DNA of 24,481 nt from positions 1 to 24,481 of the IMG/VR virus record IMGVR_UViG_3300021093_003265, one strand, 5' to 3'. The notes under the pieces were generated by a model. It did no database searches. It saw only the letters and a program-made list of their open reading frames with translations, and was not told where the DNA came from. This DNA comes from a virus. The translations under genes were made by a program, and so were the position numbers. This document shows positions 2,382-22,465 of the stretch, in pieces (within the stretch, counting starts at the first letter, position 1; each line of letters opens with the position of its first letter).

Positions 2382-2388
2382 TATTTAT
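2382..2388 (-). promoter_or_regulatory. ATAAATA motif before the BACON-domain gene
   Basis: On the minus strand the 1281-residue gene ends GGA TAA and continues ATAATATAATG. The motif ATAAATA therefore contains the TAA stop and ends 5 bases before the next ATG (2376). It resembles a T4 late promoter -10 element. Confidence 0.5.
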
Positions 2389-3360
2389 CCTATTGGTTGA
2401 ACTATTATTGGAATCCCCGGATCAGGATTCCAGCAGAATCCTTTAACTGTTAGATCGTTAGGGTTTGGTCCAAAGCTCAGCGCTACGTAAGCGTAATGTG
2501 GGGTTCGATAATTTCCTCCCCAGACGTTGAAACCTATCTGCACTGGCTGAAGTCTGACTCCATAGTAACCTGTATTAACTCCTGCTGGCCACTGACCGGG
2601 TATATTTCCAATCGTGCATTGCTGCCGAACCCGACCGCTTGGCCCACCGAACATTCCCCAACATTGTTCGTTCTCTTCATTACAATTAAAGGAACATACT
2701 GGTCCTTCACAATTCGCGTTGTACCACTTGTTGACTGTAGTCTGGTCATTACGATATTCACCGACCTGGGTACCGACAGGGAGGTTGGTGCGGTTCCATA
2801 CAGAATACCCGCAGCAGTTCTCTGGTTCGCCTGATGGTTGACATCCATATGGTTGACAACATGGGAAAACCTCATCGGGGCCTGTTACCCCTGGGGTTTT
2901 CATGTGGCCGTGCAGCCCCGCAAGCACCCCGGGGTCGATCGCTGACGGGGCATTGCCCCTAGATTGGCTCAAAACAAATTGACTCACATACTTAAACGCT
3001 GGGGGGAATTGTTGTCCCGTGATCGGGGAGGGGGGACATCCGATTGTCACACCAACAGCTAATTGATTGTAGACGGAGGTATTAGCGTTCACACCAGCTA
3101 CGCTATTAGCATTGAAGATCAGACCGTTGGGTATATCAATGTGAGTTCTTAGACCTGTAAAGTATTGATCAACAAAACTGCCTGTGGGGGGGACTGGATG
3201 ATTGCATTCTTTGCATATGATCTCGCATATTGGAATCTCAGGCAACTCATAACATTTTTCTTGACATGGAGTTTCCATACAAACTTTCCAGACTCCTGGT
3301 TGCACTTGCGCGTCGTCGAAAAAAACTACCATCACGGGGTCATCTCCGTGTGCCCCCTCT
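2385..3360 (-). other. GC-rich C-terminal module of the 1281-residue protein
   Basis: The DNA encoding residues about 957-1281 is GC-rich (2881-2940: 40 G/C of 60 by hand count) within an AT-rich gene. It encodes the domain shared with the 1899-residue protein, with an added Cys-rich insert (FPCCQPYGCQP...CCGYSVW...CSFNCNEE). Composition and paralogy suggest a transferred module. Confidence 0.7.
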
Positions 3361-6230
3361 ACTTTTATTATAAAATTATCGGCTAATATTGGAGCAGCGC
3401 CTTCTTTTTGTAATGATACTTTATTGATTCCTAACTTTTTCGAAATATTCGTTCCACTGATTATTAGCTGTTGAAACACATTATTTTCGTTAGAGGTAGG
3501 AGATGCACATATCCATGGTCTTTGCACCTTTCCTGTAAGAGCGGGCTCACCATGTCCATCGAAATAATAATAATACCAAGTTGCACCATGCATCTCAGTA
3601 GAGTTCAAAGTGAGTGGAGTATAAGCACTTGGAATAATAAAATCTTTACAAGGTGGGTTTATTAATTTAATATCTACCGGTATATCTTGATCTTCAACGT
3701 CAAATTGAAGTGGTGTTTTTACCGTTAAAATTTGGTTCTCGTAATCCTCAGAATCAGCAACACCCACAATAGTACCGGGCTTATTACTAAAATATACATT
3801 TGTTACTCTATCAAGATTTTTACCTTTAATTTTAACAATAGTTGCAGTATCCGAACACCAAGGTCCTTCTGGTGGGAATGCCTTGTAATTCGTTGGTGGA
3901 CCCGTAAAGGGTACTACGTCTAAACAGTCATGCCATGGCAAAAAATCACCCTCATATAATTTAACAAATTTTTTAGTAATTTGATCTAAACGATCCGTCC
4001 AAGACAATACTGCATTCAACGTATTGGCATCGATCCAATCCCAACTGGCAGATTCAGCATCATTATCAAATGTTTTTGCATGAGCCAATGCGTCTAAGAC
4101 GTAAACATAAGGCATATCAGGTCTACCGTCTGTTTTTGTGTTCCATATAGGATGATTAGAATCACCAAATTCTATTTCCTCTTTGAAACATGAAGTAAAT
4201 CCTGATAGAGAAGAAGTCATACATGCCAATGGATTGATAATATAATTATTTTCTGTTTGTCCACCGCTGCCGGATCCACCGCCGTCGAGTCCACCGCCAC
4301 CACTCTCAACCGGCGGATTACAAAATCTACAAACGTCGTTATCGTAATCTGGTATTTTAACGTGACTTCCATTCTCCAAAGTAAATCCGTAATAGTGTAT
4401 AGTATCCATCTCGTTAAATGTTAATAAACGAGTTCGCACATCCTCTTTAACAGGATCTAAGATAGAATGTGGTGTAACTGTATCAGTATTTATCAATGGC
4501 ACAGTTCTATACTCATTTGTGGTGGATATCATGAATAACCATCGTGCCTGTTCTCTTCTATTTTCCCATACTTGTCTTCCAACTTCATGAATCTGTGAAT
4601 CACTAATTTTAAGTAAGTCTTCATCGTATTGTGGTTCGTAGTGAGCAAGAGTAACTAAAGCAAAATCACTACTTAACGAGACTTGTTTATAATACAAGGA
4701 AGTTGGTACTTGATTAGAATCACACTCCTCCATAAAAGTTTGTCCCATAAATCCAGACCATTCTCTGCCGTCACATTGCTGGTTAGTATATGTAAACCCT
4801 TCACAATTTGTATATCCTCTGGTAAATGCCTCAGGGTACAATTGATGTGCGAATTTCCACAGTATTAAATCTGGACGAATACCGTATGCCTGTTTTTGTG
4901 CAGTTCCTCCGTTTAATTGCCATGTTATTCCGTTTAATTCAGAAGAAGGATCGTCTTTCAAATAGTATAAATTCATTCCAAAACTTCTGTACGGATTTTT
5001 CTTTGTGTTTGACCATAAAGTGGCAAATACATCACCTGCTGTTGTCGACGCACTAGAAATATAATACGGAATATTGAATTCGTTAAAAGAAAATGGAGAT
5101 TTATAATTTCTTGCAGATATTCTTATTTTTTTATCATCTCGTAATAATCCGTTATCATATACAATCTGACCGTTAATTGGCCAAAAAAATAAACTAGAAT
5201 AATCCGGTTCGTTTAGTCCAGTGCTACCTTTGAACGTGTATTCATCAATCAGATTGTCCATAAGATTAGCTGCATTAGAATGAATAATAGTACCGTACTT
5301 CGAACCAACAGCAACCTGTAAATAGTCACCAGGTGCTGAAACACTATTAGGATCTTGCCATTCTAATATTATTCGCTTGTTTGGCTGGTTTTCCACACCC
5401 ACTGCGCTTGGATATAATACCGTATCCGGTTCCTGAACAATGCCGAGGCCTCGATTATTTACAACATACCATCCATCTGGTCCTAATGATCGTATTGGGT
5501 TAGATCCAATATTTTTATTAAATAAATTTGGTTCACCTAACCATGCTTGTTTGGGCACTATTTGAGAGTTATCTCCATCACTAATTAAGTTAGGAGAAAA
5601 AAGATCAGCAAGATTCCATCCTCCTAATTGAACAGTAATTGTGTCGTCACATGGAGGCGGAGGTCCAAGTTTCACAGCCCATTTATAAGGTAAATCAGAA
5701 CATTTTTGAGGACACTTTATAAATACCGTAGACGGATCAGGACCTGGACATTCTCCTGGACACCATGGTACCAGTGTACCTGGCATAAAAGGATATACTT
5801 CTTTTACGTTTGCTTGTGGCTCATCTTCTAAATCCGGAGAAACATAATGATATAAATCTCCAGGAGGTCCTGATACTCCTATGGGAGGAATATAGTTAAA
5901 GGTATTTCCTCCTCCTCCTCCAGCAACACACGGAAAGCACATCTCGCACGATTCCCACCAATACGGACAAAAACCCCCACATTGTACGGTATCATCTCCA
6001 CAACACCTGCCGAAATGCATGGAACAAGGATCCCCAGGCACAGGTGGCGGTGGCGGTCCACCACCAGCGCATGCTAAAACATCTTGAACGGTACACAAAT
6101 TACATGGACAGGGTACACCATTTCCCTCTAATATTTTACACAAGCATGCTAGAAGACTGTGTGGAAATGCATCAGGCCCTACGATTGATCCATAACAGTA
6201 ACCATGAACTTCAGGACCGCCTATACCCAT
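2385..6230 (-). CDS. Giant Cys/Gly/Pro-rich fibre protein with TIG-like and shared C-terminal adhesin module
   Basis: 1281 residues. The N-terminal 105 residues are rich in Cys, with a Pro run (about 59-63) and a Gly run (about 104-108). Residues about 180-640 are a large unrecognised region rich in aromatic residues. A second Gly/Ser linker is at about 642-658. Residues about 785-860 look like a TIG domain ('ATIVKIKGKNLDRVTNVYF'). From there to the C-terminus the protein is colinear with the end of the 1899-residue protein: NKVSLQKEG, WKVCMETPC, CYELPEI, then YYGVRL, HYAYVALSFG and GFCWNPDPG. The last 325 or so residues are encoded by GC-rich DNA, unlike the rest. No signal peptide is seen, which fits a virion protein. 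The start lies one base after the upstream stop, with GGGGAG 12 bases before the ATG. It is probably a receptor-binding or adhesive fibre; the ligand is unknown. Confidence 0.92.
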   Translation of the reverse strand: MGIGGPEVHGYCYGSIVGPDAFPHSLLACLCKILEGNGVPCPCNLCTVQDVLACAGGGPPPPPVPGDPCSMHFGRCCGDDTVQCGGFCPYWWESCEMCFPCVAGGGGGNTFNYIPPIGVSGPPGDLYHYVSPDLEDEPQANVKEVYPFMPGTLVPWCPGECPGPDPSTVFIKCPQKCSDLPYKWAVKLGPPPPCDDTITVQLGGWNLADLFSPNLISDGDNSQIVPKQAWLGEPNLFNKNIGSNPIRSLGPDGWYVVNNRGLGIVQEPDTVLYPSAVGVENQPNKRIILEWQDPNSVSAPGDYLQVAVGSKYGTIIHSNAANLMDNLIDEYTFKGSTGLNEPDYSSLFFWPINGQIVYDNGLLRDDKKIRISARNYKSPFSFNEFNIPYYISSASTTAGDVFATLWSNTKKNPYRSFGMNLYYLKDDPSSELNGITWQLNGGTAQKQAYGIRPDLILWKFAHQLYPEAFTRGYTNCEGFTYTNQQCDGREWSGFMGQTFMEECDSNQVPTSLYYKQVSLSSDFALVTLAHYEPQYDEDLLKISDSQIHEVGRQVWENRREQARWLFMISTTNEYRTVPLINTDTVTPHSILDPVKEDVRTRLLTFNEMDTIHYYGFTLENGSHVKIPDYDNDVCRFCNPPVESGGGGLDGGGSGSGGQTENNYIINPLACMTSSLSGFTSCFKEEIEFGDSNHPIWNTKTDGRPDMPYVYVLDALAHAKTFDNDAESASWDWIDANTLNAVLSWTDRLDQITKKFVKLYEGDFLPWHDCLDVVPFTGPPTNYKAFPPEGPWCSDTATIVKIKGKNLDRVTNVYFSNKPGTIVGVADSEDYENQILTVKTPLQFDVEDQDIPVDIKLINPPCKDFIIPSAYTPLTLNSTEMHGATWYYYYFDGHGEPALTGKVQRPWICASPTSNENNVFQQLIISGTNISKKLGINKVSLQKEGAAPILADNFIIKVEGAHGDDPVMVVFFDDAQVQPGVWKVCMETPCQEKCYELPEIPICEIICKECNHPVPPTGSFVDQYFTGLRTHIDIPNGLIFNANSVAGVNANTSVYNQLAVGVTIGCPPSPITGQQFPPAFKYVSQFVLSQSRGNAPSAIDPGVLAGLHGHMKTPGVTGPDEVFPCCQPYGCQPSGEPENCCGYSVWNRTNLPVGTQVGEYRNDQTTVNKWYNANCEGPVCSFNCNEENEQCWGMFGGPSGRVRQQCTIGNIPGQWPAGVNTGYYGVRLQPVQIGFNVWGGNYRTPHYAYVALSFGPNPNDLTVKGFCWNPDPGIPIIVQPIG

Positions 6231-6231
6231 T

Positions 6232-7623
6232 TTAACAAGTCTCCCCGAACCAGACAGCTCCTGGATAATTTAACAAACAATTGTATTCTGATTCTGGAAT
6301 ACAACGACCCTTAAAACAACATTTTCCAATCAAACAACTAAAACACATATCAGGAAGATCCGAACATCTGTTTAATATTCCCTCGTATATGTTGCATTTG
6401 ACGTTTCCTACAACTCCCATCCATTCAAGACACTCTACAGGCCAGGTATTTATACAAGTTATTCCATTTGTATCGTAATCGTACAGACAACAAGCTGTCT
6501 GAAATTCTAATAATTCATCTCTTTCTTTACACGGTTCATCGTCCCATGTTCCACCAATAGAGTCACAATACGTTTTAGAAACAAAGTCTACACATTTTTT
6601 ACGAGGATCCGGTATACTGGCAATAAAACAAGATCCCATCGTAGGACCAGAACCCGTAATTAAATTTGCAGTTTTTCCTGGACTGTAATCTTGAAGCAAA
6701 AACGGAATTCTTAGATTTTTATTATCTCCTACTATATTTAATACTGGTTGTATAGATTTAGTGATACCTTCTGTTCCTAATTGGTTCACTAATGTAATTG
6801 CATTTGCGTAGGATGAACCCACTGGGGCCCCAGTGTTTCCCATCAAAACAGAATTAGGAATAAAAGTATCAAGTGAGTTTGTCACGCCTCCCGTTGCGGT
6901 AATCCAATTATCGTTGTAATAAGTGGAACCGTCCCAACCAAACGGATAAATTTCTCTTGTATTTTTAGAAGTATAACTAAGTAGTCCAAGATTTTTATTC
7001 CATTGAGCACCAGATGTTCCTCTAAGAACAAGTTTATCATTTTCTGAAGTATCAACAAATACCAATTGACCTGGCAACCCTGATCCAGATAATTCGTCTA
7101 TTACTTCATTCAAAGATAATATTATGCCACCAGAAGTCTCAGTTGCATTTATACCAGTCAAAGTTATTCCGTAAAATTCTGGATAACTATTCGCTTCTAA
7201 TTGAGTAGGAGAAGCTGCCTGATACTCACGAGTGGCTTTAGAATATTCTTCTGGTGTGCTTGTTTTAAATATAAGTTGACCGTTTGTTGTTGTTCCCTTT
7301 AACGTATAGTATGAATCATTTATGAAGGGTGCTCCATTTGCTGGAACAATTAACTTTGCAGCGGTTCCACCGTGTACTACTGCTAAAGTAAATCCATCGT
7401 TAAAATTTAAGATGAATAAATACTTTTGCTCATGCAAAAGATACTCAGATTGGAATCCAAAAGTTCCACCAGATATTTGTCTTCCCGTGACACCAGGAAA
7501 ACATAAACCGTCTGGTCCAGTAGGTCCAGTAGGTCCAGTAGGTCCAGTAGGTCCAATTGGACCTAGATCTCCTCGAACTTCTAGTCGTATTCGTGCAGAT
7601 GAACTTCCTTTATTAATACTCAT
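6232..7623 (-). CDS. Collagen-stalk fibre protein with C-terminal Cys-rich modules
   Basis: 463 residues. After MSINKGSSSARIRLEVRG comes a regular Gly-Pro-Thr stalk (about residues 19-37), encoded by a 9-base tandem repeat. Residues about 40-325 are a beta-rich fibre domain like those of the other collagen-type proteins here ('KSIQPVLNIVGDNKNLRIPF' near its end). The last 135 residues hold three Cys modules (about 330-365, 376-410, 432-463), each with paired or single Cys, a spaced Cys, then G-G-x-W or W/F-x-G and a final Cys; the last is GKCCFKGRC...WFGETC. The start overlaps the upstream stop by four bases (ATGA), with GGGAG 13 bases before the ATG, so translation is probably coupled. It is probably a trimeric tail fibre whose tip is stabilised by disulphides after release from the host. 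No enzymatic motif is visible. Confidence 0.92.
   Translation of the reverse strand: MSINKGSSSARIRLEVRGDLGPIGPTGPTGPTGPTGPDGLCFPGVTGRQISGGTFGFQSEYLLHEQKYLFILNFNDGFTLAVVHGGTAAKLIVPANGAPFINDSYYTLKGTTTNGQLIFKTSTPEEYSKATREYQAASPTQLEANSYPEFYGITLTGINATETSGGIILSLNEVIDELSGSGLPGQLVFVDTSENDKLVLRGTSGAQWNKNLGLLSYTSKNTREIYPFGWDGSTYYNDNWITATGGVTNSLDTFIPNSVLMGNTGAPVGSSYANAITLVNQLGTEGITKSIQPVLNIVGDNKNLRIPFLLQDYSPGKTANLITGSGPTMGSCFIASIPDPRKKCVDFVSKTYCDSIGGTWDDEPCKERDELLEFQTACCLYDYDTNGITCINTWPVECLEWMGVVGNVKCNIYEGILNRCSDLPDMCFSCLIGKCCFKGRCIPESEYNCLLNYPGAVWFGETC
7514..7558 (-). repeat. 9-bp tandem repeat encoding the Gly-Pro-Thr stalk
   Basis: Four perfect copies of GGTCCAGTA (7514-7549) are followed by a diverged copy ending at 7558. 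Read on the minus strand they encode the Gly-Pro-Thr collagen stalk of the 463-residue fibre protein. Copy-number change would lengthen or shorten the stalk in frame. Confidence 0.93.
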
Positions 7624-9365
7624 TCTGGATTAATCTCCCAAAGACTAGAGTATTTAGTTTTAATTAAAGTTTTTCCATCACATCGTATCATTCGAATTGG
7701 TCTAATTTTTGCTGTTTCTAGACGATTGATTTTTTTGAATTTACGATTAGAAAAATTACCAATCCATGCTTGACTTCCACCAGATATTGTAGACCCAGAC
7801 CAAATTCCTTCTGTGGGATAATTAAATGCACCAGTTGAAGTCCAATATGAATCCGTTAATGGTGTCACTCCAGCGGAAACAAGAATTTCATTGAATGAAT
7901 GATTTTGTGTTTGATTCATGATGTAAGCTAGTTCGTTATGACTAGGAATAAACCATGGACTTACATTTACTTTATTTGAAACTCTAGATACGCCTTTTGC
8001 TAAAAGTTCTGTTAATAAAACTCCAGAGAAAAATCCAGGACGAGTAAATAAATCTTCCATTGATTTATAAAGATTGTTTATTTCTATAATTGCCTCGGCA
8101 GCACTAGTCATACTGGAATTCCATTGAGAAGAATTTGCATACAAAGACTTACTTAATCCTTGATGATTTATTCCGTATTTACTAAACAAATAGGCATTAA
8201 CTGATCTAACAGTATTGTATATGCCCCAATCAGAAGACCATCTTCCGTTTATTCCTTGAGTTGCCTTTTGTATTGCTCGTCTGAAAGGATTGTCTCCGTC
8301 TTCTCTTTTTTGACAAAACAAATTATGATTATTTGATATAATTTCAGAATTTTCATCATCTGTTAAACTAGAATTTTTTATGTATCCTTCATTAAAAGAA
8401 ATTAAATCTGTTGCATTATTTTCTAATATTTTTCCTATTTCATTGTATAAAGGACCCCAATCGTTTCCTCCTCTGCTCCAAGTAAAACGAGTGCTGTCTT
8501 TTGAAGTCGTAAGATCACTTGGCGCAAGTATCATTAAATAAGAATCATTAGAGTCGCAAACATTTGAATAATCTATACCGTATCCGTTTCCGTCAATTCG
8601 TCCAGTATAAAGTTCAGAATTTGTTTCATTAATAGAACTCAAAGACAAATCTGTTTTAGGACCAAAGTAAGGATGTCCTAAACAACGAGATTTCCCCGGA
8701 TTATATACTCCTACAACAATACCTCCTGCATAATTATCTCCTGGTCTGAGTCGTTCTTGATATATGCTGTTAAAACAATCTAATGCACCGTTGTCGCATT
8801 CAAATTCCGCACAAGTTTTAGATTTTCCAAAATATATATTTTTCTTTTCAAGACAATAACTACCAGTTATCCCGTTTTCACAACTTATTCCATCACAACA
8901 CGCTCCAGTACCTCCATAACACAAACCAGTTTCACATAAAGTTCCGTTTCCTTGATAATATCTTTTTAGTAATTCACAATCTGATTTAGTAGTTTCTTTG
9001 CATAGTCCGTTTCCATCACAACATGCTCCTTTTTGTTCTACGGTTCGGAATGTGCAACGAGTATTACGACACAACACATTAGACCAAGAAGACTGATATC
9101 TAAATTGAGTAGCTAGTGCGTTACATTGAGATAAAGTAGTATCTTGACAGGGCAAAACTTGTTTTAGTTGAGGATCGTACAAACAACACGATCCAATTTC
9201 TTGATTTATTTGACCACAAGTTACTCCAGCTCGAAATACACTTCCTAGTTTTCCGTATCTGACAGCACAAGTATACGCATCGGTATTAATGCATCTTTCT
9301 CCTGTACTACCTTTCCAGATACAGGCTCCTTGTGTATTAGATTGTATGTTAGAAAATAGACTCAT
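7620..9365 (-). CDS. Four Cys-rich modules fused to a DUF1566-type C-type-lectin-like domain
   Basis: 581 residues. Residues 11-190 hold four consecutive Cys modules (about 11-50, 57-99, 112-149, 152-190); the third is clearest: KGACCDGNGLCKETTKSDC followed by YYQGNGTLC. Residues about 205-565 match a DUF1566/fibrobacter-major-paralogue-like domain. It has an opening 'AGGIVVGV', an 'LMILAPSDL...F.WS' segment, 'WFIPSHNELAYIM' (about 469-481), 'YWTSTGAFNY' and the closing 'AKIRPIRMIR' (about 550-560). This fold is C-type-lectin-like and is used for ligand binding in bacterial surface proteins and in many diversity-generating-retroelement target proteins. A large insertion (about 290-440) separates the halves. 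The gene follows the 1899-residue gene by 13 bases, with an ATAAATA motif. A tail-tip receptor-binding protein is the most likely role; no retroelement is visible nearby. Confidence 0.92.
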   Translation of the reverse strand: MSLFSNIQSNTQGACIWKGSTGERCINTDAYTCAVRYGKLGSVFRAGVTCGQINQEIGSCCLYDPQLKQVLPCQDTTLSQCNALATQFRYQSSWSNVLCRNTRCTFRTVEQKGACCDGNGLCKETTKSDCELLKRYYQGNGTLCETGLCYGGTGACCDGISCENGITGSYCLEKKNIYFGKSKTCAEFECDNGALDCFNSIYQERLRPGDNYAGGIVVGVYNPGKSRCLGHPYFGPKTDLSLSSINETNSELYTGRIDGNGYGIDYSNVCDSNDSYLMILAPSDLTTSKDSTRFTWSRGGNDWGPLYNEIGKILENNATDLISFNEGYIKNSSLTDDENSEIISNNHNLFCQKREDGDNPFRRAIQKATQGINGRWSSDWGIYNTVRSVNAYLFSKYGINHQGLSKSLYANSSQWNSSMTSAAEAIIEINNLYKSMEDLFTRPGFFSGVLLTELLAKGVSRVSNKVNVSPWFIPSHNELAYIMNQTQNHSFNEILVSAGVTPLTDSYWTSTGAFNYPTEGIWSGSTISGGSQAWIGNFSNRKFKKINRLETAKIRPIRMIRCDGKTLIKTKYSSLWEINPE

Positions 9366-9372
9366 GACATGT

Positions 9373-9379
9373 TATTTAT
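9373..9379 (-). promoter_or_regulatory. ATAAATA motif before the DUF1566 gene
   Basis: Minus strand: ATAAATA lies in the 13-base gap after the TGA of the 1899-residue gene and ends 7 bases before the ATG at 9365. No Shine-Dalgarno sequence is visible. It resembles a T4-type late promoter element. Confidence 0.5.
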
Positions 9380-12300
9380 CATACTATTTCTTGAACTGTT
9401 ATTGAAACATTTGGTGTAGGATTCCAACAGTATCCAACAATTTCTCGGTCGGTGGCATTTGCACCGATTCGCATCGCTACATAACCGTAGTGGGTCGTAT
9501 TTGTCGCCTCGTTTTTGAACTTGACTCCGAAGTAGCCAATGGAGTTTGCTGTCCACTGGCCAACCGAAGTTCCAATGGCGGCGGCGGAGCTGATGTAGAA
9601 GAATGCCGAGGGGCCGACCACGGTACCGAGCGCGAGATTGGTGCGGAAGGTGCTTGTGCCTGCGTTAGGGTTTCGCATGATCCCTGTGCCAGCTCCTGCC
9701 AGCAGAGCCACACTGGTATCGCTCGTGCCGTAGGGATTGACATCCCACCCAGGAATGCTATTCGCCGGCGCGTTTTCGATCTCACTCGTGACGAAGTTGA
9801 TGACAGTGCCCTGGAAACTCACGGGCACCCGGTGGTTCAGTATGCCACTGCATATCGAATAACAATCTGAAATATCAGATAACTGATAATATTGACTATG
9901 GCATGGAGTTTCTACATAAACTTTCCATGATCCTGATTGTACAGGAGTGTTGAATTGAGCTGTTATCAGATTTGACGTGTCGATGATAAACGATGTAGCA
10001 ATTATTGAATTACCACCTATCTTCTGCAATGATACTCTGTGTATTCCTTGATCTGTAAAATTGTTTCCGGCAATATTTAATTGTCCAAAATTTCCTGAAC
10101 CAACACATATTGTATTTTGCCATGTTGCACTAGTTATGGTGTAATTTGCACTGCGTGGAGTATATCGAGCATTTAAGGTTGTATCAGTACATCCGGGTTT
10201 TATTACTGTAACCGTTAATGGCAGATCCCATGTCGTAAGAGGGAATTGAACTGGTGTTATAGCTGTCAAAGACTTTCCATTAGTATGGACACTAATGTTA
10301 GTGGCAGAAAGACTAGGATCATTATTAAATATAATTTTATTTATTTCTTGGAAATTCAAACCAGTAATTGTAAAATTAACTCCAGTTGATGAACAAGCTG
10401 GTCCATTATTTGGTGCAATTGCATTAGGTTGTGGGCATGGAGTTGTATAAGTGTAGGCATTGCCTAACACATTAGACTGTTGATATGCGTTCTTGACTTG
10501 GACGCTTCGCGTTCCAGGCGAACTCGAACCAGGAACTATTGCAGTTACTGTGGTAGAATTTAAAACATCGACAGTGTCACAATTTACTCCTCCTATCAAG
10601 ACTTGATTTACTCCTTCATTTTGAGTAAAGTCCTGTCCTGTTATTGTTATCGTATTTCCGCCACCCATAGGTCCCTCATTAGGACTAACTGAAGTGATCT
10701 GCAGAGGAGTTTGACTTGAAGTAAAAGTAAAATAATCGTCAGAGTCGTCGCCTTGATTATCATGTCTCTTAAACGTTAAATCGCATAGTCCTATATCAGA
10801 AACTGAAACCATAGGACTGATAAATTTTAATTGATTTCTAGTAGAGTCAGAATTACATTGAACTTCGATTTGAGGCTGGGTACTAAAGACAACACGACTT
10901 TGATTTGAAGAATTTTTAAGATACCATCCGTTAGCCTGAATAACACATCCTCCTGTATAAACACAAGATGTTGGTGAAATATCATGGAATCCGTTAATTA
11001 TTTTAAGTAATGGAGGAGGCAATGTATAGGTAAAGGTTCTAGTAACTGATGTTGCACCAGTTCTATTGACTGTTAATGACAGCGGACCTTCAAATCCATC
11101 TGTTTGCACTGGAACATCGATAGTTATGCTACCAGAAGATTGATTTGTTATAACACAATCCTTATTTCCTATTTTAACAGTGCAATCATCTAAATTAGAT
11201 CCTGTTATCGTAACACTAGTTGCTGGACGATCAGATTGACCACCATAATCTGGTTTACCCCATCCATTATCAGGATTAACACTGGTTATGGTTGGTTGAG
11301 GAACTGTATATGTAAATAGTATACTAGCAGAACCGGTTTGGGTGGTGACTACTATCGGTTGATTTCCGGCTGTACCAAGCGGAGTCGTTGCAGTTATTTG
11401 TGTTGAGGAGTTAACGGTGTAGGTCACAGCAACTCCTCCAACAGTAACAGAAGATACACCAACAAAATTTGTACCGGTAATTGTTATAGGTGTTCCGCCG
11501 GTAGTAGGACCACTACTAGGATTAACATTGGTTATGGTTGGTTGAGGAACTGTATATGTAAATAGTATACTAGCAGAACCGGTTTGGGTGGTGACTACTA
11601 TCGGTTGATTTCCGGCTGTACCAAGCGGAGTCGTTGCAGTTATTTGTGTTGAGGAGTTAACGGTGTAGGTCACAGCAGCAACTCCTCCAACACGAACAGA
11701 ACTTACATTAACAAAATTTGTACCGGTAATTATTATAGATGTTCCGCCGGTAGTAGGACCATTATTAGGATTAACATTGGTTATGGTTGGTACAGGAATT
11801 TGGGTATACTCGAAGCCTTGAGTTATTGTTGTTTCTTGAATACCATCACCATCCGCCGGCCATGGTCCTTCGGATCTTTGAACCTTAATAGGAACCGATC
11901 CAGAACTCTGAGAAGGTGGAACAACAATTTGTAATTGATTTTCTGTTGAATTGGTTACTAAAACTTCATTTCCATTTACAAAAACTTTAGTAGTTTCATC
12001 TGAATAGTATAATCTAAGTCCTGATATTGTTACAAGATGTGAATCTGTACGAAGTCCTCTATTCGGTTGTATATTATTTATTTGAGGCGCGGGTTGATAA
12101 TAAATAAATTGATTTGGTAATTGCAGAGTGGATATCGATTCTCCCAGTATATCTCTTTTTCGTCTACGCCAGAATTTATATTCTCCTTTTGTTGTAATGG
12201 CAGGAAGTTTGACTTTAAAGTAAATATCATTGTATTGTTCAAATAATCTGGAGTCTGTGCATGTTATTCCGGACTCTCCTCTTTGAATTCCAGAATAATC

Positions 12301-15078
12301 AAAACCGCTTTGATCATTTTTGGCATCCATATATGTTCCATAGACTTTAATAACAGGAGTTTCACCAATACCAATTCCGTACGGAGCACTCAAAGTTGTA
12401 TCAGAGTCTAATTTTATTGAAGAAATAATACCATCAACTTTCCAGTTAGTCGGGAATTCATTACTTTCTATATCATTAGATTTTATTGCTGTAATCATTA
12501 CACGATGATTGTGTTCAAATGGAACTCCCTCTAACTGGAATACAATTTTTGTATCATCGACAGGAGTAACTGGCTGAACAATAGAAAACGGAGAATAAAT
12601 TCCCTCTATGCCGTCGGGATGTGCTGATTTTATATTGATCTTATTAACTGGATATTGTCCCATAAAATTCTGACCATAAATACACACTGTTTGATTTGGT
12701 TCAGAAGGAGTAGTTTTTAACTGGTTGTCTAACGTTTGATTGCCTACTTGAGTTGTTATACTCTGAATCATCGGACTAGTTGGATTGTATGTGAAAGTCT
12801 TGGTTTCAGTTCCATTTTCTGCACTAAATCTTAATTCTTGTTGTGTTGCTTCAGTACTTGGTGGAGTTGTTATAGTTACTAGATCGTCTGTTCTAGATGT
12901 AATTTCGACTTCCACACCTCCTATTGTAACTGTAAGAGTGCCTTGATAATTTAAATTCTGCCCACGAAGTTGTACTACGGTGCCTCCTTCTATTGGTCCG
13001 TGATCAGGAACAACTTCATCTATTACTGGCAGGGGAGGAGAATTTCCCTGATATGTAAATGGTTTACTATCTGAACCTTCGTATGTTTGAACTGTTAGTG
13101 GTTGACTTCCTTGTCCACTAGGAACAGTAGCTTTTATTTGCTGGGAAGAAATAATGTTTTGATCTAAACATTCGTGACTTCCAATTCGAACAGATTCTAC
13201 CTGGTTAAAATGTTGTCCTGTTATTATTATAGAATATCCTCCATCTGCCGGTCCAGTATTGGGATCGATACTAATAATGATTGGAGGAACTGCTTGTCTA
13301 TAAGACCAGCCATCATGTTCTACACGACCCTCTGCATTATCAAGTTTAATCCTGGCAGATCCTACATTTCCTCCACGAGTTTTTACCTTGACTAATCCAG
13401 TATTTTTCTCTATAATTTCTGCTTCCCGATCTTGTATAACCACCTGAATAGTAGTATCTAAATTTGTTCCATATATTTTTATTTCATCACCACCGTATCT
13501 GTGACCATTTTGTGGTATTACACTAGTTATTGTGGGCAAAGCAGGAGGATTTCCTGAATAAACAAACGAAAGACCAGTTGCAGATCCGTCCGGAGTAGTT
13601 ACAGTTATCTGTTGTGGTCCACTTCCAAATGGCGTTTTTGCCTGAATTATGGTGGGATCGATTACCCGGAGATCTGTTGCCAGATTCGATCCCACTTTTA
13701 CAGAATTTGCTCCAGTAAATCCTGTTCCAGTGATGGTTATATCAGTTCCTCCTAATTCTGGTCCAGTCGCGGGCTCGACAGAAGCGAGAGTAGGGGGAGG
13801 TTGAGGAGGAGGTGGAACTGGTCCTATACATTCTCTGCCGTAAGATATTCCAGTAATATTGACACAATTTTTATAATAAGGTTGAAATAGGTCTTGTTGC
13901 CATGAAGCGAATGCAATAGTAACATCTGTTGCATCTACTATTTCGTCGTTGTTTAAATCATACGATGGAGTTCTCCATGCTGCCAACAACAAAGTTAATA
14001 AACTGTCTGAAGGAAGATATAGGTTGTCTATTTTTAAATTTTGTTTTGACCAATAATCTTGTGTTATTCCTAATCCAACGCAATTCATATACCAATCTCG
14101 ACCGTAACTTATTGCGGAGTAAACATTTATTCCGGGTTCTGGTTTAGGAATCACATTAAGTGGAAAATAAACTTGTATTGGATTTGCTCCATTTATTTCG
14201 AATGCTCCAGTAAATGCTGTTTCTAGTGGAATGATCAATAGTAAAGATTTACTTTCATCTGGACTTATTGTATTATCTTCTTGAATTTCAATTTTTATTG
14301 AATTCAATTCAGATTTTTTAATCTGAAATATAGAATTATTTTTCGTGTCTATAGGATAAAACGCATCCGATCCATCTGTAGTAATTCCTGAAATCGATGT
14401 TATTCCTTCTAGTGCCTGTCTTGTAACCCAGTCAACTACATTTTCATCACCATACCAACGACTTCCTGTTGCGCCTGCAGCCGCAGTCTCTCCTATTCCA
14501 ATTACAAGAGCCTGTGCGGTTACACCAAATAAAGTGATACCGCCATAATCCGTGTATTTTACTCTTATATTTTTTAAATCATCTGTTAATGTGATTCCGA
14601 TTGTTTCTGGAGTTCTAGTATTAATAGTTTTTAATGTAATAGTAGATTTTTTTGTAGACAATGGATCGTAATCTACATTATCAGAGAATTTAAAATAAGA
14701 TGTATTGTTCGTAGAAACAACGGGACTAAATGTACATCCTGGACAAGTTGCTCCAGCTTGAACAAACCAAAATCCAGTAAATCCTATAAAAGGATTACCA
14801 GACGATAATACTACAGTTCCGTCTGTGAAATGATTCACAAAACGTAAACCAATATGATTTCCTATTTGTACAGTTATTCCTTCTAAAGCACGAAATGGTG
14901 CAGAAAATAACGAATAATGTCCAGTCCATCCAGTTACACCTGGTCCAGTTGTGCCAAAAACATTTAATCCAGAATTACCTATTGATCCTATCGGTCCAGT
15001 AGATCCAGTGGCACCAGTTGGGCCTCTTTCTCCACAAACTCCTATTATGTAATTAGGGTATATAAAACTTGATGACAT
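9379..15078 (-). CDS. 1899-residue multi-TIG fibre/adhesin with collagen stalk and dockerin-like loop
   Basis: It has a short collagen-like stretch (GERGPTGATGSTGPIGSIG, about residues 16-34), then a beta-rich fibre domain (to about 315). Next is a dockerin-like segment at about 372-386 (DLNNDEIVDATDV, flanked by AAW and ASW helices), where the D-x-N-x-D-x-I-x-D spacing suggests calcium binding. A PPPPQPPP hinge follows (about 420). Residues about 430-1740 hold roughly 14 IPT/TIG-type Ig-like units, recognisable by P-x-I-x-S/N-x-x-P-x-x-G-P-x-x-G-G and I-x-I-x-G-x-x-F. The C-terminal 160 residues (VPVSFQGTVINF to GYCWNPTPN) are shared with the 1281-residue protein, and their core is GC-rich. 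That domain recalls lectin-like domains of PEP-CTERM-sorted bacterial surface proteins, a tentative comparison from memory. The start lies one base after the upstream TGA, with a GAGAG stretch upstream. It is probably a long, flexible receptor-binding fibre. Confidence 0.93.
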   Translation of the reverse strand: MSSSFIYPNYIIGVCGERGPTGATGSTGPIGSIGNSGLNVFGTTGPGVTGWTGHYSLFSAPFRALEGITVQIGNHIGLRFVNHFTDGTVVLSSGNPFIGFTGFWFVQAGATCPGCTFSPVVSTNNTSYFKFSDNVDYDPLSTKKSTITLKTINTRTPETIGITLTDDLKNIRVKYTDYGGITLFGVTAQALVIGIGETAAAGATGSRWYGDENVVDWVTRQALEGITSISGITTDGSDAFYPIDTKNNSIFQIKKSELNSIKIEIQEDNTISPDESKSLLLIIPLETAFTGAFEINGANPIQVYFPLNVIPKPEPGINVYSAISYGRDWYMNCVGLGITQDYWSKQNLKIDNLYLPSDSLLTLLLAAWRTPSYDLNNDEIVDATDVTIAFASWQQDLFQPYYKNCVNITGISYGRECIGPVPPPPQPPPTLASVEPATGPELGGTDITITGTGFTGANSVKVGSNLATDLRVIDPTIIQAKTPFGSGPQQITVTTPDGSATGLSFVYSGNPPALPTITSVIPQNGHRYGGDEIKIYGTNLDTTIQVVIQDREAEIIEKNTGLVKVKTRGGNVGSARIKLDNAEGRVEHDGWSYRQAVPPIIISIDPNTGPADGGYSIIITGQHFNQVESVRIGSHECLDQNIISSQQIKATVPSGQGSQPLTVQTYEGSDSKPFTYQGNSPPLPVIDEVVPDHGPIEGGTVVQLRGQNLNYQGTLTVTIGGVEVEITSRTDDLVTITTPPSTEATQQELRFSAENGTETKTFTYNPTSPMIQSITTQVGNQTLDNQLKTTPSEPNQTVCIYGQNFMGQYPVNKINIKSAHPDGIEGIYSPFSIVQPVTPVDDTKIVFQLEGVPFEHNHRVMITAIKSNDIESNEFPTNWKVDGIISSIKLDSDTTLSAPYGIGIGETPVIKVYGTYMDAKNDQSGFDYSGIQRGESGITCTDSRLFEQYNDIYFKVKLPAITTKGEYKFWRRRKRDILGESISTLQLPNQFIYYQPAPQINNIQPNRGLRTDSHLVTISGLRLYYSDETTKVFVNGNEVLVTNSTENQLQIVVPPSQSSGSVPIKVQRSEGPWPADGDGIQETTITQGFEYTQIPVPTITNVNPNNGPTTGGTSIIITGTNFVNVSSVRVGGVAAVTYTVNSSTQITATTPLGTAGNQPIVVTTQTGSASILFTYTVPQPTITNVNPSSGPTTGGTPITITGTNFVGVSSVTVGGVAVTYTVNSSTQITATTPLGTAGNQPIVVTTQTGSASILFTYTVPQPTITSVNPDNGWGKPDYGGQSDRPATSVTITGSNLDDCTVKIGNKDCVITNQSSGSITIDVPVQTDGFEGPLSLTVNRTGATSVTRTFTYTLPPPLLKIINGFHDISPTSCVYTGGCVIQANGWYLKNSSNQSRVVFSTQPQIEVQCNSDSTRNQLKFISPMVSVSDIGLCDLTFKRHDNQGDDSDDYFTFTSSQTPLQITSVSPNEGPMGGGNTITITGQDFTQNEGVNQVLIGGVNCDTVDVLNSTTVTAIVPGSSSPGTRSVQVKNAYQQSNVLGNAYTYTTPCPQPNAIAPNNGPACSSTGVNFTITGLNFQEINKIIFNNDPSLSATNISVHTNGKSLTAITPVQFPLTTWDLPLTVTVIKPGCTDTTLNARYTPRSANYTITSATWQNTICVGSGNFGQLNIAGNNFTDQGIHRVSLQKIGGNSIIATSFIIDTSNLITAQFNTPVQSGSWKVYVETPCHSQYYQLSDISDCYSICSGILNHRVPVSFQGTVINFVTSEIENAPANSIPGWDVNPYGTSDTSVALLAGAGTGIMRNPNAGTSTFRTNLALGTVVGPSAFFYISSAAAIGTSVGQWTANSIGYFGVKFKNEATNTTHYGYVAMRIGANATDREIVGYCWNPTPNVSITVQEIV
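9440..9845 (-). other. GC-rich C-terminal module of the 1899-residue protein
   Basis: This encodes residues about 1745-1880. Hand count: 9601-9660 has 40 G/C of 60, against 9 of 60 at 10321-10380 in the same gene. The module is colinear with the C-terminus of the 1281-residue protein, including YFGVKF, HYGYVAM and GYCWNPTPN. Confidence 0.75.
11281..11526 (-). repeat. TIG-domain direct repeat, copy 1 (246 bp)
   Basis: It encodes one IPT/TIG unit (residues about 1185-1266). Bases 11283-11430 are identical to 11529-11676; the remainder has a few differences. The adjacent copy is 3 bases longer because of an extra Ala codon. Confidence 0.95.
11527..11775 (-). repeat. TIG-domain direct repeat, copy 2 (249 bp)
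   Basis: It encodes the preceding TIG unit in protein order (residues about 1102-1184). It shares 148 identical bases with the neighbouring copy and carries VGGVAAVTY where that copy has VGGVAVTY. This indicates recent tandem duplication or gene conversion. Confidence 0.95.
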
Positions 15079-19261: not shown

Positions 19262-20403
19262 TAGGGGCACTCTATTGGTATTTGACTGTTTGGATTAACG
19301 CCATTATTTATACGACATAAACTAAACATGTTTTCTATAGGAATATCAAAAAATGAATTATAATCGGTCATTTCGTTTGCCCAATTTGGAAAAAAATAAG
19401 AAGGAACTCCTCCAAAATCACCACTCAAATTACATCCCTCAGTATAAGTTAATCCGGTTGCATAGGTATTTCCCATAACATAAGGTGAATACTGTTGCAA
19501 TCGAGGAAACTCACATATTTGAGTTTGTATTGCGGTGGAACCAGGCGGTTGAAACTGATTTATTTCTAATTCAAATATACAGTTTGTTCCGGCTGGATGA
19601 TTTGAACGAAGATAAAGACCTTTATAATTTTCTTGAGATATTCCTACAGTAAGAATATACGAATAGTCAGTAAAAACTTCTCCGTCTTGAAATCTGCTGT
19701 AATTCAGTTTAGATCCGATTATTTCATTGGCAACACTTTCTGGATCTAGTAAACGATCTGCAGTTACTGCATTAAATTGAAATCTAGAGTCTTGAAATGC
19801 ACCTCCATTCAATCTCAGTATTTGTTTTTTTGGATATTTTAGTGAAAGTTCTGATGACGGAACAGAAAATATTTTTTCAAAAAATATTTTTAGGGCCTCT
19901 GCTGTTCCTTTTTTCAAATAAAATCTAGTTTTTATATATTTAACAAAAGATCCCAAAGAAACTGCAGTTATATTATTTCCATTTTTGTCTTTTAATTGTT
20001 CTTTATCATCGTATTCTGGAAAATATGTAGAGTATAATCTTTTAAGATATTTTGCTTTAGTTTTTTCTATATCTATTACACTAAGAAATTTATCTTCTAA
20101 CAAATAACCTGATCCTGCACCACACTCTAAGTCACAATACAACCAATCATAATATTTTTGCACAAAATCAAATACAGTTAGTTCATTTCCTCCTCGTTCT
20201 TCTTTTTCGATAAGAATCCAGAGGGGTATTTGCTTGGATATATCAAAATTAGTTATACAACATTCTGTTCCTGATATGGTACTGTCTTCATCATTTGCAC
20301 TACTCGCATTTGGTATTAATATATCAAATATTTCCGCTAAAATCGCTTCAGGCGGAATATCATTACTTTGTTCTTGCGATGAAATGTATGGAAAAAAGCT
20401 CAT
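19261..20403 (-). CDS. 7: gp7-like baseplate wedge protein, short form
   Basis: 380 residues, against about 1032 for T4 gp7. It matches only the C-terminal part of gp7: 'VFDFVQKYYDWLYC' (about 77-90), 'YLKRLYSTYFPEYDD', the hallmark 'IKTRFYLKKGTAEALKIFFE' (about 157-176; compare T4 'FYSTKGIEASYKFLF'), and 'YKGLYLRSNHPAGTNCIFEL' (compare T4 'YKSDVIRFVHPVGFGF'). In T4, gp7 binds the gp6 dimer to form the wedge core. The N-terminal beta-propeller-like part of T4 gp7 is absent, with only about 75 residues before the conserved block. The start overlaps the gp6-like stop by four bases (ATGA) without a visible Shine-Dalgarno sequence, so translation is probably coupled. Position between gp6 and gp8 makes the assignment firm. 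Confidence 0.88.
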   Translation of the reverse strand: MSFFPYISSQEQSNDIPPEAILAEIFDILIPNASSANDEDSTISGTECCITNFDISKQIPLWILIEKEERGGNELTVFDFVQKYYDWLYCDLECGAGSGYLLEDKFLSVIDIEKTKAKYLKRLYSTYFPEYDDKEQLKDKNGNNITAVSLGSFVKYIKTRFYLKKGTAEALKIFFEKIFSVPSSELSLKYPKKQILRLNGGAFQDSRFQFNAVTADRLLDPESVANEIIGSKLNYSRFQDGEVFTDYSYILTVGISQENYKGLYLRSNHPAGTNCIFELEINQFQPPGSTAIQTQICEFPRLQQYSPYVMGNTYATGLTYTEGCNLSGDFGGVPSYFFPNWANEMTDYNSFFDIPIENMFSLCRINNGVNPNSQIPIECP

Positions 20404-22070
20404 GTCAGATTAAGAGTCATTTTACTCATTGTTGTTCTGATTTTATTAATATTAGGATTGAAAGATTTTAATTTTAATCTAACGGCCAAATGTTCTTTAA
20501 ATATTTTCTTTATTTGAATAATTCGATTTTGTAGTATTTGACCAACAGGGAAATCAACAATAGGATCTCCATCCTCATTTACAGCAATTAAGCTTAAACC
20601 ATCCCAGGATAATCGTATTTGTTGTCCAGTAATTGATTCAAACTGAGTAGAAATTATTTCATCTCGTCGATTTGCACTGCGTGACACAGTATTGTATAGA
20701 TCTATTGTATTTAATGGTTTATCTTGTAAAGTAAACTCATATGTCGTATTAATGTGTTCCAGATTCTGTACTATAGGAAATTTTTCTAAAATACTATTTC
20801 TCCAATCTTCCCAGTTAAACTCCAAATTAAAAGAATATTTATTTGAATATGTACTGTATTCTTGTCTAAAAGATTCTAGTATTTTTGTTCTCCAATATTG
20901 TTTAGTTCTTTGAGATAAAGTTGTGGGAAATATTGTTTCAACATTCAAAGTTACATCGAGTGTTTGAGGAATAATATATTCCGGAATAACAGTAATCATA
21001 TTTTTTTCTCTGAGAAATTCTATTATTTCTCTAGGATTTCCTATTCCTCCGGAAAAAGATACAAAAACTCTACCATACTTAGGCGGTATCATTTCATCTC
21101 CACCGTATATAGCAATTTCGTTTAGATTTGTAATGTATCCTGATTTCAATAATAATGCAGCATAATCAGAACTGGTTACTGCACGTTCTTGTGCAGAAAA
21201 AACTTTTGGTGCAAGAAATCTTATTAAATTTAAATCAGGACCATCAGATCCACCGGATGTAGTCAGAGCATTCTGTATTTGAAAAACAGGATCTGTCCAA
21301 TCAAATAAATCGTTTGCTGCAGAACCACTTGTAATTAAATAACTTATTCTTACTTGATCTGTTGCTTTTATCGATCTTCCAAGGTTGTTATCTTTTCCAA
21401 AATCTATTACGAAAGTATCATCTAATCTGTCTATGAAAAAAATATTACTGTCGTTGTTTGGAAAAAAATTCACATTGGTCCATTCTTCCCAGTATGGTAC
21501 GTTTTGTGGTTTTACTTCTATTCGTATAGTAGATAAATCTACATCACTGTCATTTATTAAAAATTTTTGTTTTGTTAAATCTATTTGTGTAGTAATATCT
21601 TGTTCTATTACAATTTGTTTTGCTTCCACTACAGTGACGTCTGCAGCTCTTCCTTGGATCAAAGATACCGGATTAATATTATAAAATGTAAAATAATTTC
21701 CATCAGACGTCGAAACTATGAATTGTCGGTATCTAGGAATATCTAGACTTTGTAAAGCTGGATCTGGTGTATAAATTATTAGTTTAGAACTGGCTGATTT
21801 TTTTCCGGGTACAGTATATCCTAATGGCTTCAGTAAAGAAATGATGGAAGTAGGTCGTCGTGCAGTATCTAAAAATGCCTCGTTTGCAATCATATTAGAA
21901 TAGAAGGCATAATAATACGTATTATAAGCCAGTAAATCTATAACTGTTTGAATAACGGTTCCTTCAAAATTAAATCCATTAAAAACAGTTTGATTTTTTA
22001 AAAAATCAGTTAACGAAGATTTAATTTCAGCGAAGTTAAGTTTAGTCAGATTGGGAGGAGTTTGGGTCAT
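20400..22070 (-). CDS. 6: gp6-like baseplate wedge protein (baseplate J family)
   Basis: 556 residues (T4 gp6 is 660). gp6 dimers form the inner ring of the T4 baseplate and are the most conserved wedge component, equivalent to the baseplate J protein of other contractile tails. Visible signatures are 'FEGTVIQTVIDLLAYNTYYYAFYSNMIANEAFLDTARRP' at about residues 35-73, followed by 'LLKPLGYTVPGKKSA', and 'FLAPKVFSAQERAVTSSDYAALL' at about 288-310, both typical of T4-like gp6. The C-terminal third has alternating basic and hydrophobic segments typical of the dimerisation region. The start overlaps the gp25 stop by four bases (ATGA), and the gene is coupled downstream to gp7. No truncation or frameshift is visible. 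Confidence 0.95.
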   Translation of the reverse strand: MTQTPPNLTKLNFAEIKSSLTDFLKNQTVFNGFNFEGTVIQTVIDLLAYNTYYYAFYSNMIANEAFLDTARRPTSIISLLKPLGYTVPGKKSASSKLIIYTPDPALQSLDIPRYRQFIVSTSDGNYFTFYNINPVSLIQGRAADVTVVEAKQIVIEQDITTQIDLTKQKFLINDSDVDLSTIRIEVKPQNVPYWEEWTNVNFFPNNDSNIFFIDRLDDTFVIDFGKDNNLGRSIKATDQVRISYLITSGSAANDLFDWTDPVFQIQNALTTSGGSDGPDLNLIRFLAPKVFSAQERAVTSSDYAALLLKSGYITNLNEIAIYGGDEMIPPKYGRVFVSFSGGIGNPREIIEFLREKNMITVIPEYIIPQTLDVTLNVETIFPTTLSQRTKQYWRTKILESFRQEYSTYSNKYSFNLEFNWEDWRNSILEKFPIVQNLEHINTTYEFTLQDKPLNTIDLYNTVSRSANRRDEIISTQFESITGQQIRLSWDGLSLIAVNEDGDPIVDFPVGQILQNRIIQIKKIFKEHLAVRLKLKSFNPNINKIRTTMSKMTLNLT

Positions 22071-22465
22071 AGAGTTATTATTATTGTTACTGTTTCATCT
22101 GAATTTATTAATTTCATACCAAGAGTAATAAATAAATTCCTTTTTTGATTTTTTATTTTTTCTTCTAAACTTACTTTTAAACTTTGAGCATCTACTCTTG
22201 GTTCGTTTTTTACTATGGCAGGATATATTAGGTTTATTATTTCATATTCTAAAATTTCTAATTTTTCTGTTGAAAACAGACTGTCATAAATTCGAGTTCC
22301 AAAGGATGTATTAAATGGTCTTTCTCTATTTTTAGTTAAAATAATATTTTTTATACTAGCTCGTATTGTATTTTTATCTAACACTACATTGAAATCATTG
22401 GTATATCTATTTTTTGTTAAAAAAATAGGTAAATCGGTGTATTTTGGATTATTAAGTAATGGCAT
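22067..22465 (-). CDS. 25: gp25-like baseplate wedge / sheath initiator
   Basis: 132 residues, the same length as T4 gp25. This protein family (gp25/GpW, also in type VI secretion as TssE) sits at the wedge core, where its fold mimics a sheath subunit and starts sheath polymerisation. The conserved 'NRERPFNTSFGTRIYDSLF' occupies about residues 46-64, and the EPR loop motif is at 88-90 (KNEPRV). The start is set by a TAATG overlap with the upstream stop and by GGAAG 13 bases before the ATG, one of the few Shine-Dalgarno-like sites in the window. It is followed immediately by gp6; in T4 gene 25 lies apart from gene 6, but adjacency is common in other contractile systems. Confidence 0.95.
   Translation of the reverse strand: MPLLNNPKYTDLPIFLTKNRYTNDFNVVLDKNTIRASIKNIILTKNRERPFNTSFGTRIYDSLFSTEKLEILEYEIINLIYPAIVKNEPRVDAQSLKVSLEEKIKNQKRNLFITLGMKLINSDETVTIIITL

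Follow-up and report, generated by a model that had tools for sequence, protein, structure and literature searches.

Some phage tail fibers are built on Ig-like/TIG or collagen stalks that carry exchangeable tips. In the baseplate region of T4-superfamily phages (cyanophage-like), the gp6-like and gp25-like wedge genes stand ahead of fiber-like genes. Phages of planctomycetes are almost undescribed, and a full-text search for "planctomycete phage" found no paper in the collection covered. On the bacterial side, PEP-CTERM proteins have been tied to exopolysaccharide (EPS) (PMC1569441), and a PEP-CTERM protein in Aquincola promotes bound EPS and flocs (PMC9850573). Here, we analyzed a fiber region of a lake phage of the T4 kind. 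It resembles phage fibers with TIG/collagen stalks in its long repeat stalk, variable C-terminal domain, and tail gene context, but the tip of one of its longest tail-region proteins comes from an apparent host surface protein rather than from other phages.

Results

The window (i.e., the whole 24,481-nt stretch of DNA subjected to our analysis) is a linear viral contig, and its ORF list places all main genes on the minus strand. T4-type baseplate genes are located upstream and the fiber-like proteins are encoded downstream of them, as in the T4 superfamily, which places the latter in a tail/baseplate block, a trait of phage receptor-binding fibers (Table 1). In contrast to T4-superfamily phages, the gp6-like protein is <30% identical to the listed cyanophage relatives, and neither the 1899- nor the 1281-residue protein has a match among 50,697 phage records. 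The TIG domain (PF01833) was found in 10 stretches of the 1899 protein, above the Pfam cut-off (3.2e-109), and the 1281 protein matched nothing in Pfam or PHROG. A dockerin-like stretch, LLTLLLAAWRTPSYDLNNDEIVDATDVTIAFASWQQ, at residues about 359-393 of the 1899 protein resembles, by eye, the end of a planctomycete ORF (L047) and receives no Pfam call. In addition, a BACON domain (PF19190, 2e-8) occurs in the fiber-region neighbor protein encoded at 955-2376, and a repeated Cys motif (GACC...C...C..GG...G...C...C) occurs in four neighbors (955-2376, 6232-7623, 7620-9365, and an extension of gene 1-927 in L201).

Table 1. Features of the fiber region and adjoining baseplate genes, in window coordinates
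Feature	Position	Strand	Evidence and remarks
1281-residue protein, second module copy	2385..6230	-	ORF
Diverged Cys-rich tip of 1281 protein	2388..3215	-	Last three strands alignable to 1899 tip
TIG-like domain + linker, 1281 protein	3216..3893	-	Aligned with 1899 module; beta-strands, moderate pLDDT
1899-residue fiber-like protein	9379..15078	-	ORF; collagen-like start, ~10 TIG domains, linker, terminal tip
Whole tip of 1899 protein, codons 1744-1899	9382..9849	-	L046 match, bacteria-only profile, AlphaFold pLDDT 96
Last 22 residues of 1899 protein, REIVGYCWNPTPNVSITVQEIV	9382..9447	-	Phage-type composition; shared with 1281 end
Host-derived patch, codons 1741-1877 of 1899 gene	9448..9858	-	GC3 0.68; 67-80% identity to L046
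TIG-like domain + linker (KVSLQK...WKVxxETPC), 1899 protein	9850..10431	-	Match to 1281 protein; phage-type composition, GC3 0.19
gp6-like baseplate wedge gene	20400-22070	same as fiber genes	phrog_219, 2e-77
gp25-like baseplate wedge gene	22067-22465	same as fiber genes	phrog_261, 2e-17

The C-terminal modules of the 1281 and 1899 proteins are paralogous, as the preliminary description had claimed, and their similarity reaches well past the short motifs on which that claim was based. Indeed, BLASTP aligned the TIG+linker portions (1281 residues 786-1014 versus 1899 residues 1556-1752) with 33% identity over 230 columns (1e-25) and the terminal regions (residues 1190-1280 versus 1816-1898) with 35% identity over 93 (1e-11 to 4e-13), and Smith-Waterman scores were far above the maxima of 1000 shuffles for both TIG+linker (249 versus 53) and tip (143 versus 71). 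Some details of the earlier account changed. The intervening genes number two (6232-7623 and 7620-9365) rather than three; a module length of about 1,500 bases holds for the 1281 protein (~500 codons, ~1.5 kb) but not for the 1899 protein (~350 codons, ~1.05 kb); and the TIG-like domains ascribed to both proteins are called by Pfam in the 1899 protein alone. The Cys-rich insert of the 1281 tip was confirmed by a hand count on the translations, with 12 Cys after 'NHPVP' versus 1 in the 1899 tip. The fold prediction suggested at the time succeeded for the 1899 tip, for which AlphaFold2 (52 sequences) gave a beta-rich model with pLDDT 96.1 and pTM 0.91, but was poor for the whole 1281 module (pLDDT 54.4), and we make no fold claim for the Cys-rich part. 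The last three strands of the 1281 protein (GYYGVRL, HYAYVALS, VKGFCWN) have counterparts in the 1899 tip. No other phage turned up in a scan for the linker motif WKVxxETPC, whose remaining matches were short chance frames.

Base composition divides the 1899 gene sharply. Codons 1741-1877 have a third-position GC (GC3) of 0.68, compared with 0.19 along the gene, and the final 23 codons are down at 0.09; the high-GC3 patch has a likelihood gain of 69, against a maximum of 11 in 100 shuffles. Six other genes scanned for GC3 shifts gave gains of <10, mostly for low-GC3 stretches. Identity to the best bacterial relative (L046) follows the same boundaries, at 67-80% within codons 1744-1877 versus 27% for the last 22 residues, 10 of which are identical to the end of the 1281 protein. 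Given this GC3 jump and the phage-type last residues shared with the 1281 protein, an existing phage fiber end has had a host-derived patch spliced into it, and the simplest reading is that this segment took the place of its interior. The tip is of bacterial origin, with the transfer running from bacterium to phage. Collectively, the two proteins have a framework in common (i.e., TIG+linker and the last ~22 residues), while the tips themselves differ: the interior of the 1899 tip is a patch that was recently derived from a host, and the 1281 tip has diverged strongly.

A similar-looking domain of bacterial PEP-CTERM proteins served as the search lead. Bacterial relatives were found in genome contigs by a DNA pattern for GWD[IVF]NPY; the set is selected for that motif and is not an unbiased census, and within it most loci encode secreted-looking proteins with the same domain, largely from freshwater planctomycetes. 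The search against bacterial surface proteins proposed in the preliminary description thus identified the 1899 tip as a planctomycete secreted-protein domain, whereas the one proposed against other phages matched neither fiber-like protein. L046 shows 68% identity to the tip over 146 aa (7e-72; planctomycete secreted proteins reach 69%), L049 shows 66%, and the DNA of the tip is 73% identical to that of L046 over 398 bases. A bacteria-only profile scores the tip at 209 bits (2.4e-65), placing it in the planctomycete GWDxNPY domain family. Searches of the tip against Pfam, NCBIfam, and PDB sequences gave nothing significant, no Pfam or NCBIfam domain name was found for the planctomycete GWD[IV]NPY domain, and Foldseek searches of PDB and BFVD came back empty at E<=0.001.

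The planctomycete GWD[IV]NPY secreted proteins (L046, L049) have the whole globular domain in common with the phage tip, at 66-69% identity. The similarity starts at 'SGILNH', right behind an apparent signal peptide (read by eye), and stops at the start of their PEP-CTERM-like tail, and the domain is the main globular part of these short proteins, which have no stalk in front of it. L049 narrowly exceeds the TIGR02595 PEP-CTERM cut-off (16.2 versus 16) and L046 falls below it; an exosortase is encoded in all four relative genomes tested. In contrast, the phage copy follows TIG repeats and has ~22 phage-type residues at its end, and the phage proteins show neither signal peptide nor PEP-CTERM tail (by reading and NCBIfam), so they do not qualify as PEP-CTERM/exosortase-sorted proteins. 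One planctomycete genome (G001:C50; L046, L202) holds three paralogous copies of the domain in a row, so that possible donor alleles sit side by side.

The domain was present in 15 of the 19 genomes of the donor-like genus (cut-off 1e-15), in 25 of 151 genomes of the planctomycete order (1e-10), and in 2 of 294 genomes of the phylum (1e-10), one of them G001 itself; these fractions are only roughly comparable, as the genus value was obtained with a different cut-off and query. Outlier copies occur in other phyla. In a quick tree of 136 rows, which raised long-branch warnings elsewhere but none at the phage-tip clade, the tip groups with three planctomycete rows (support 100) within a 19-row clade of planctomycetes and unassigned bins (95). 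When viral contigs (by exact-peptide and two-row alignment scans), phages, and plasmids were searched directly with the tip, just two near-identical contigs were found, and scanning viral contigs broadly for GWDxNPY returned this pair again, plus unrelated short frames, some of which we attribute to antisense tRNA-like sequence. Contig 3300020083_000157 (L030/L141) aligns in two pieces (99.2% versus 99.98% identity) with a ~40-base overlap at about 11510-11549, which may reflect a small indel or a different repeat number in the TIG array.

The 1281 module shows a weaker rise in GC3 than the 1899 tip (0.45 versus 0.25; gain 22, shuffled maximum 14), and the GC3 of the 1281 tip is 0.44. This tip has diverged beyond the reach of the bacteria-only profile at E<=10, and its best bacterial match is the third paralogue of L046 (31%, 2e-8), located in its last ~90 residues. 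With its intermediate GC3, this Cys-rich relative is probably an older capture.

Freshwater planctomycetes are probably the hosts of the phage, and we infer a host from the genus of L046 and L049. The Cys motif of the protein encoded at 7620-9365 was found in 21 of 61 genomes of the planctomycete family versus none of 61 from the L078 (Rubrivivax) phylum; it is absent from G001, and the genomes that carry it are not the G001- and G002-like ones. Neither gp6 nor the TIG+linker portion had a match in planctomycete genomes (those of the family in the case of gp6), both being weak negatives run without a positive control. Since gp6 is unmatched there, the surface modules alone tie the phage to that host.

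Discussion

We propose that the phage acquired the terminal domain of the 1899 protein by recombination with freshwater planctomycete DNA and that the captured domain was fitted between a TIG/linker stalk and ~22 final residues that are both the phage's own, where it would act as the host-contact tip of a long tail-region fiber. The bacterium would export the domain to its surface or exopolysaccharide matrix, as its signal peptide, PEP-CTERM-like tail, and exosortase suggest, and because of this export the phage copy could dock on the host coat. Docking might use the same glycan or protein partner, or a homotypic contact with the host's own copies; both binding modes are guesses. The 1281 tip, on a second fiber-like protein, would be a relative that is older or was captured independently and has since diverged and become Cys-rich. 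Taken as a whole, capture from a planctomycete with a predicted host-contact role for the 1899 tip, and an older or independent relative in the 1281 protein, is the explanation we favor with fair confidence.

Could the patch be an artifact, or the transfer have run the other way? An abrupt composition jump within one gene is what an assembler would leave on joining bacterial DNA to a phage gene, but we rejected this extremely improbable origin, since the junctions recur identically in two other contigs: the 800 bases around both are 100% identical in contigs from separate metagenomes (IMG 3300020109 and 3300020083), which are listed as Lake Tanganyika metagenomes (PMC8245535). Moreover, the 1899 reading frame is open across the whole patch, its end reverts to phage-type sequence shared with the 1281 end, and a diverged relative of the tip lies on a second gene. 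It is very improbable that bacteria acquired the domain from phages; the 1281 tip does show longer residence of a related domain in the phage, but the patch has a GC3 foreign to the phage, the nearest bacterial relatives have loci of 63% GC, the tip is nested inside a planctomycete clade, and no further viral contig with the domain was found.

As for function, the preliminary description had seen in the terminal domain either a receptor-contacting part or a trimerization cap shared by both fibers. The tips turned out not to be one domain simply reused, and the identity of the 1899 tip as a planctomycete secreted-protein domain favors host contact over a phage-internal cap. A folding or oligomerization cap refreshed from a bacterial gene, with another part of the fiber binding the host, would fit the terminal position of the domain, which follows the same linker in both proteins, and their retention of a phage-type end. 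We nevertheless consider it unlikely, as the domain forms the main globular part of the short, stalkless proteins secreted by the bacteria and replacement by a host allele has no rationale for such a cap. The tip might instead hold virions in planctomycete EPS or disguise them, increasing encounters rather than serving as the injection receptor contact. The association of PEP-CTERM proteins with EPS (PMC1569441, PMC9850573) and the further planctomycete-type modules and BACON domain of neighboring proteins are consistent with such retention or coat mimicry, which nothing directly sets apart from receptor binding; we rate it as quite improbable. Host contact best explains why a domain that planctomycetes export by an EPS-associated sorting system should form the terminus of a long tail-region protein.

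We infer, for the 1899 tip, a position on the virion surface, binding, the host, and a ligand, and its most likely role would be host contact by docking on an exopolysaccharide or protein coat. A bolder version, which we hold as a doubtful possibility, is that the phage repeatedly refreshes its fiber tips from exosortase-sorted surface genes of the host, with the conserved linker and C-terminal end as a cassette, and adsorbs by homotypic contact of its copies of the domain with those of the host.

Our data suggest that the virus makes contact with its host through a piece of that host's coat. The sharp-edged, host-derived tip points to the likely host lineage of an uncultured phage and, in addition, singles out a conserved surface domain for which no structural relative has been solved. 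The idea of a phage adsorbing with a copy of its host's coat domain is thereby made directly testable with purified proteins.
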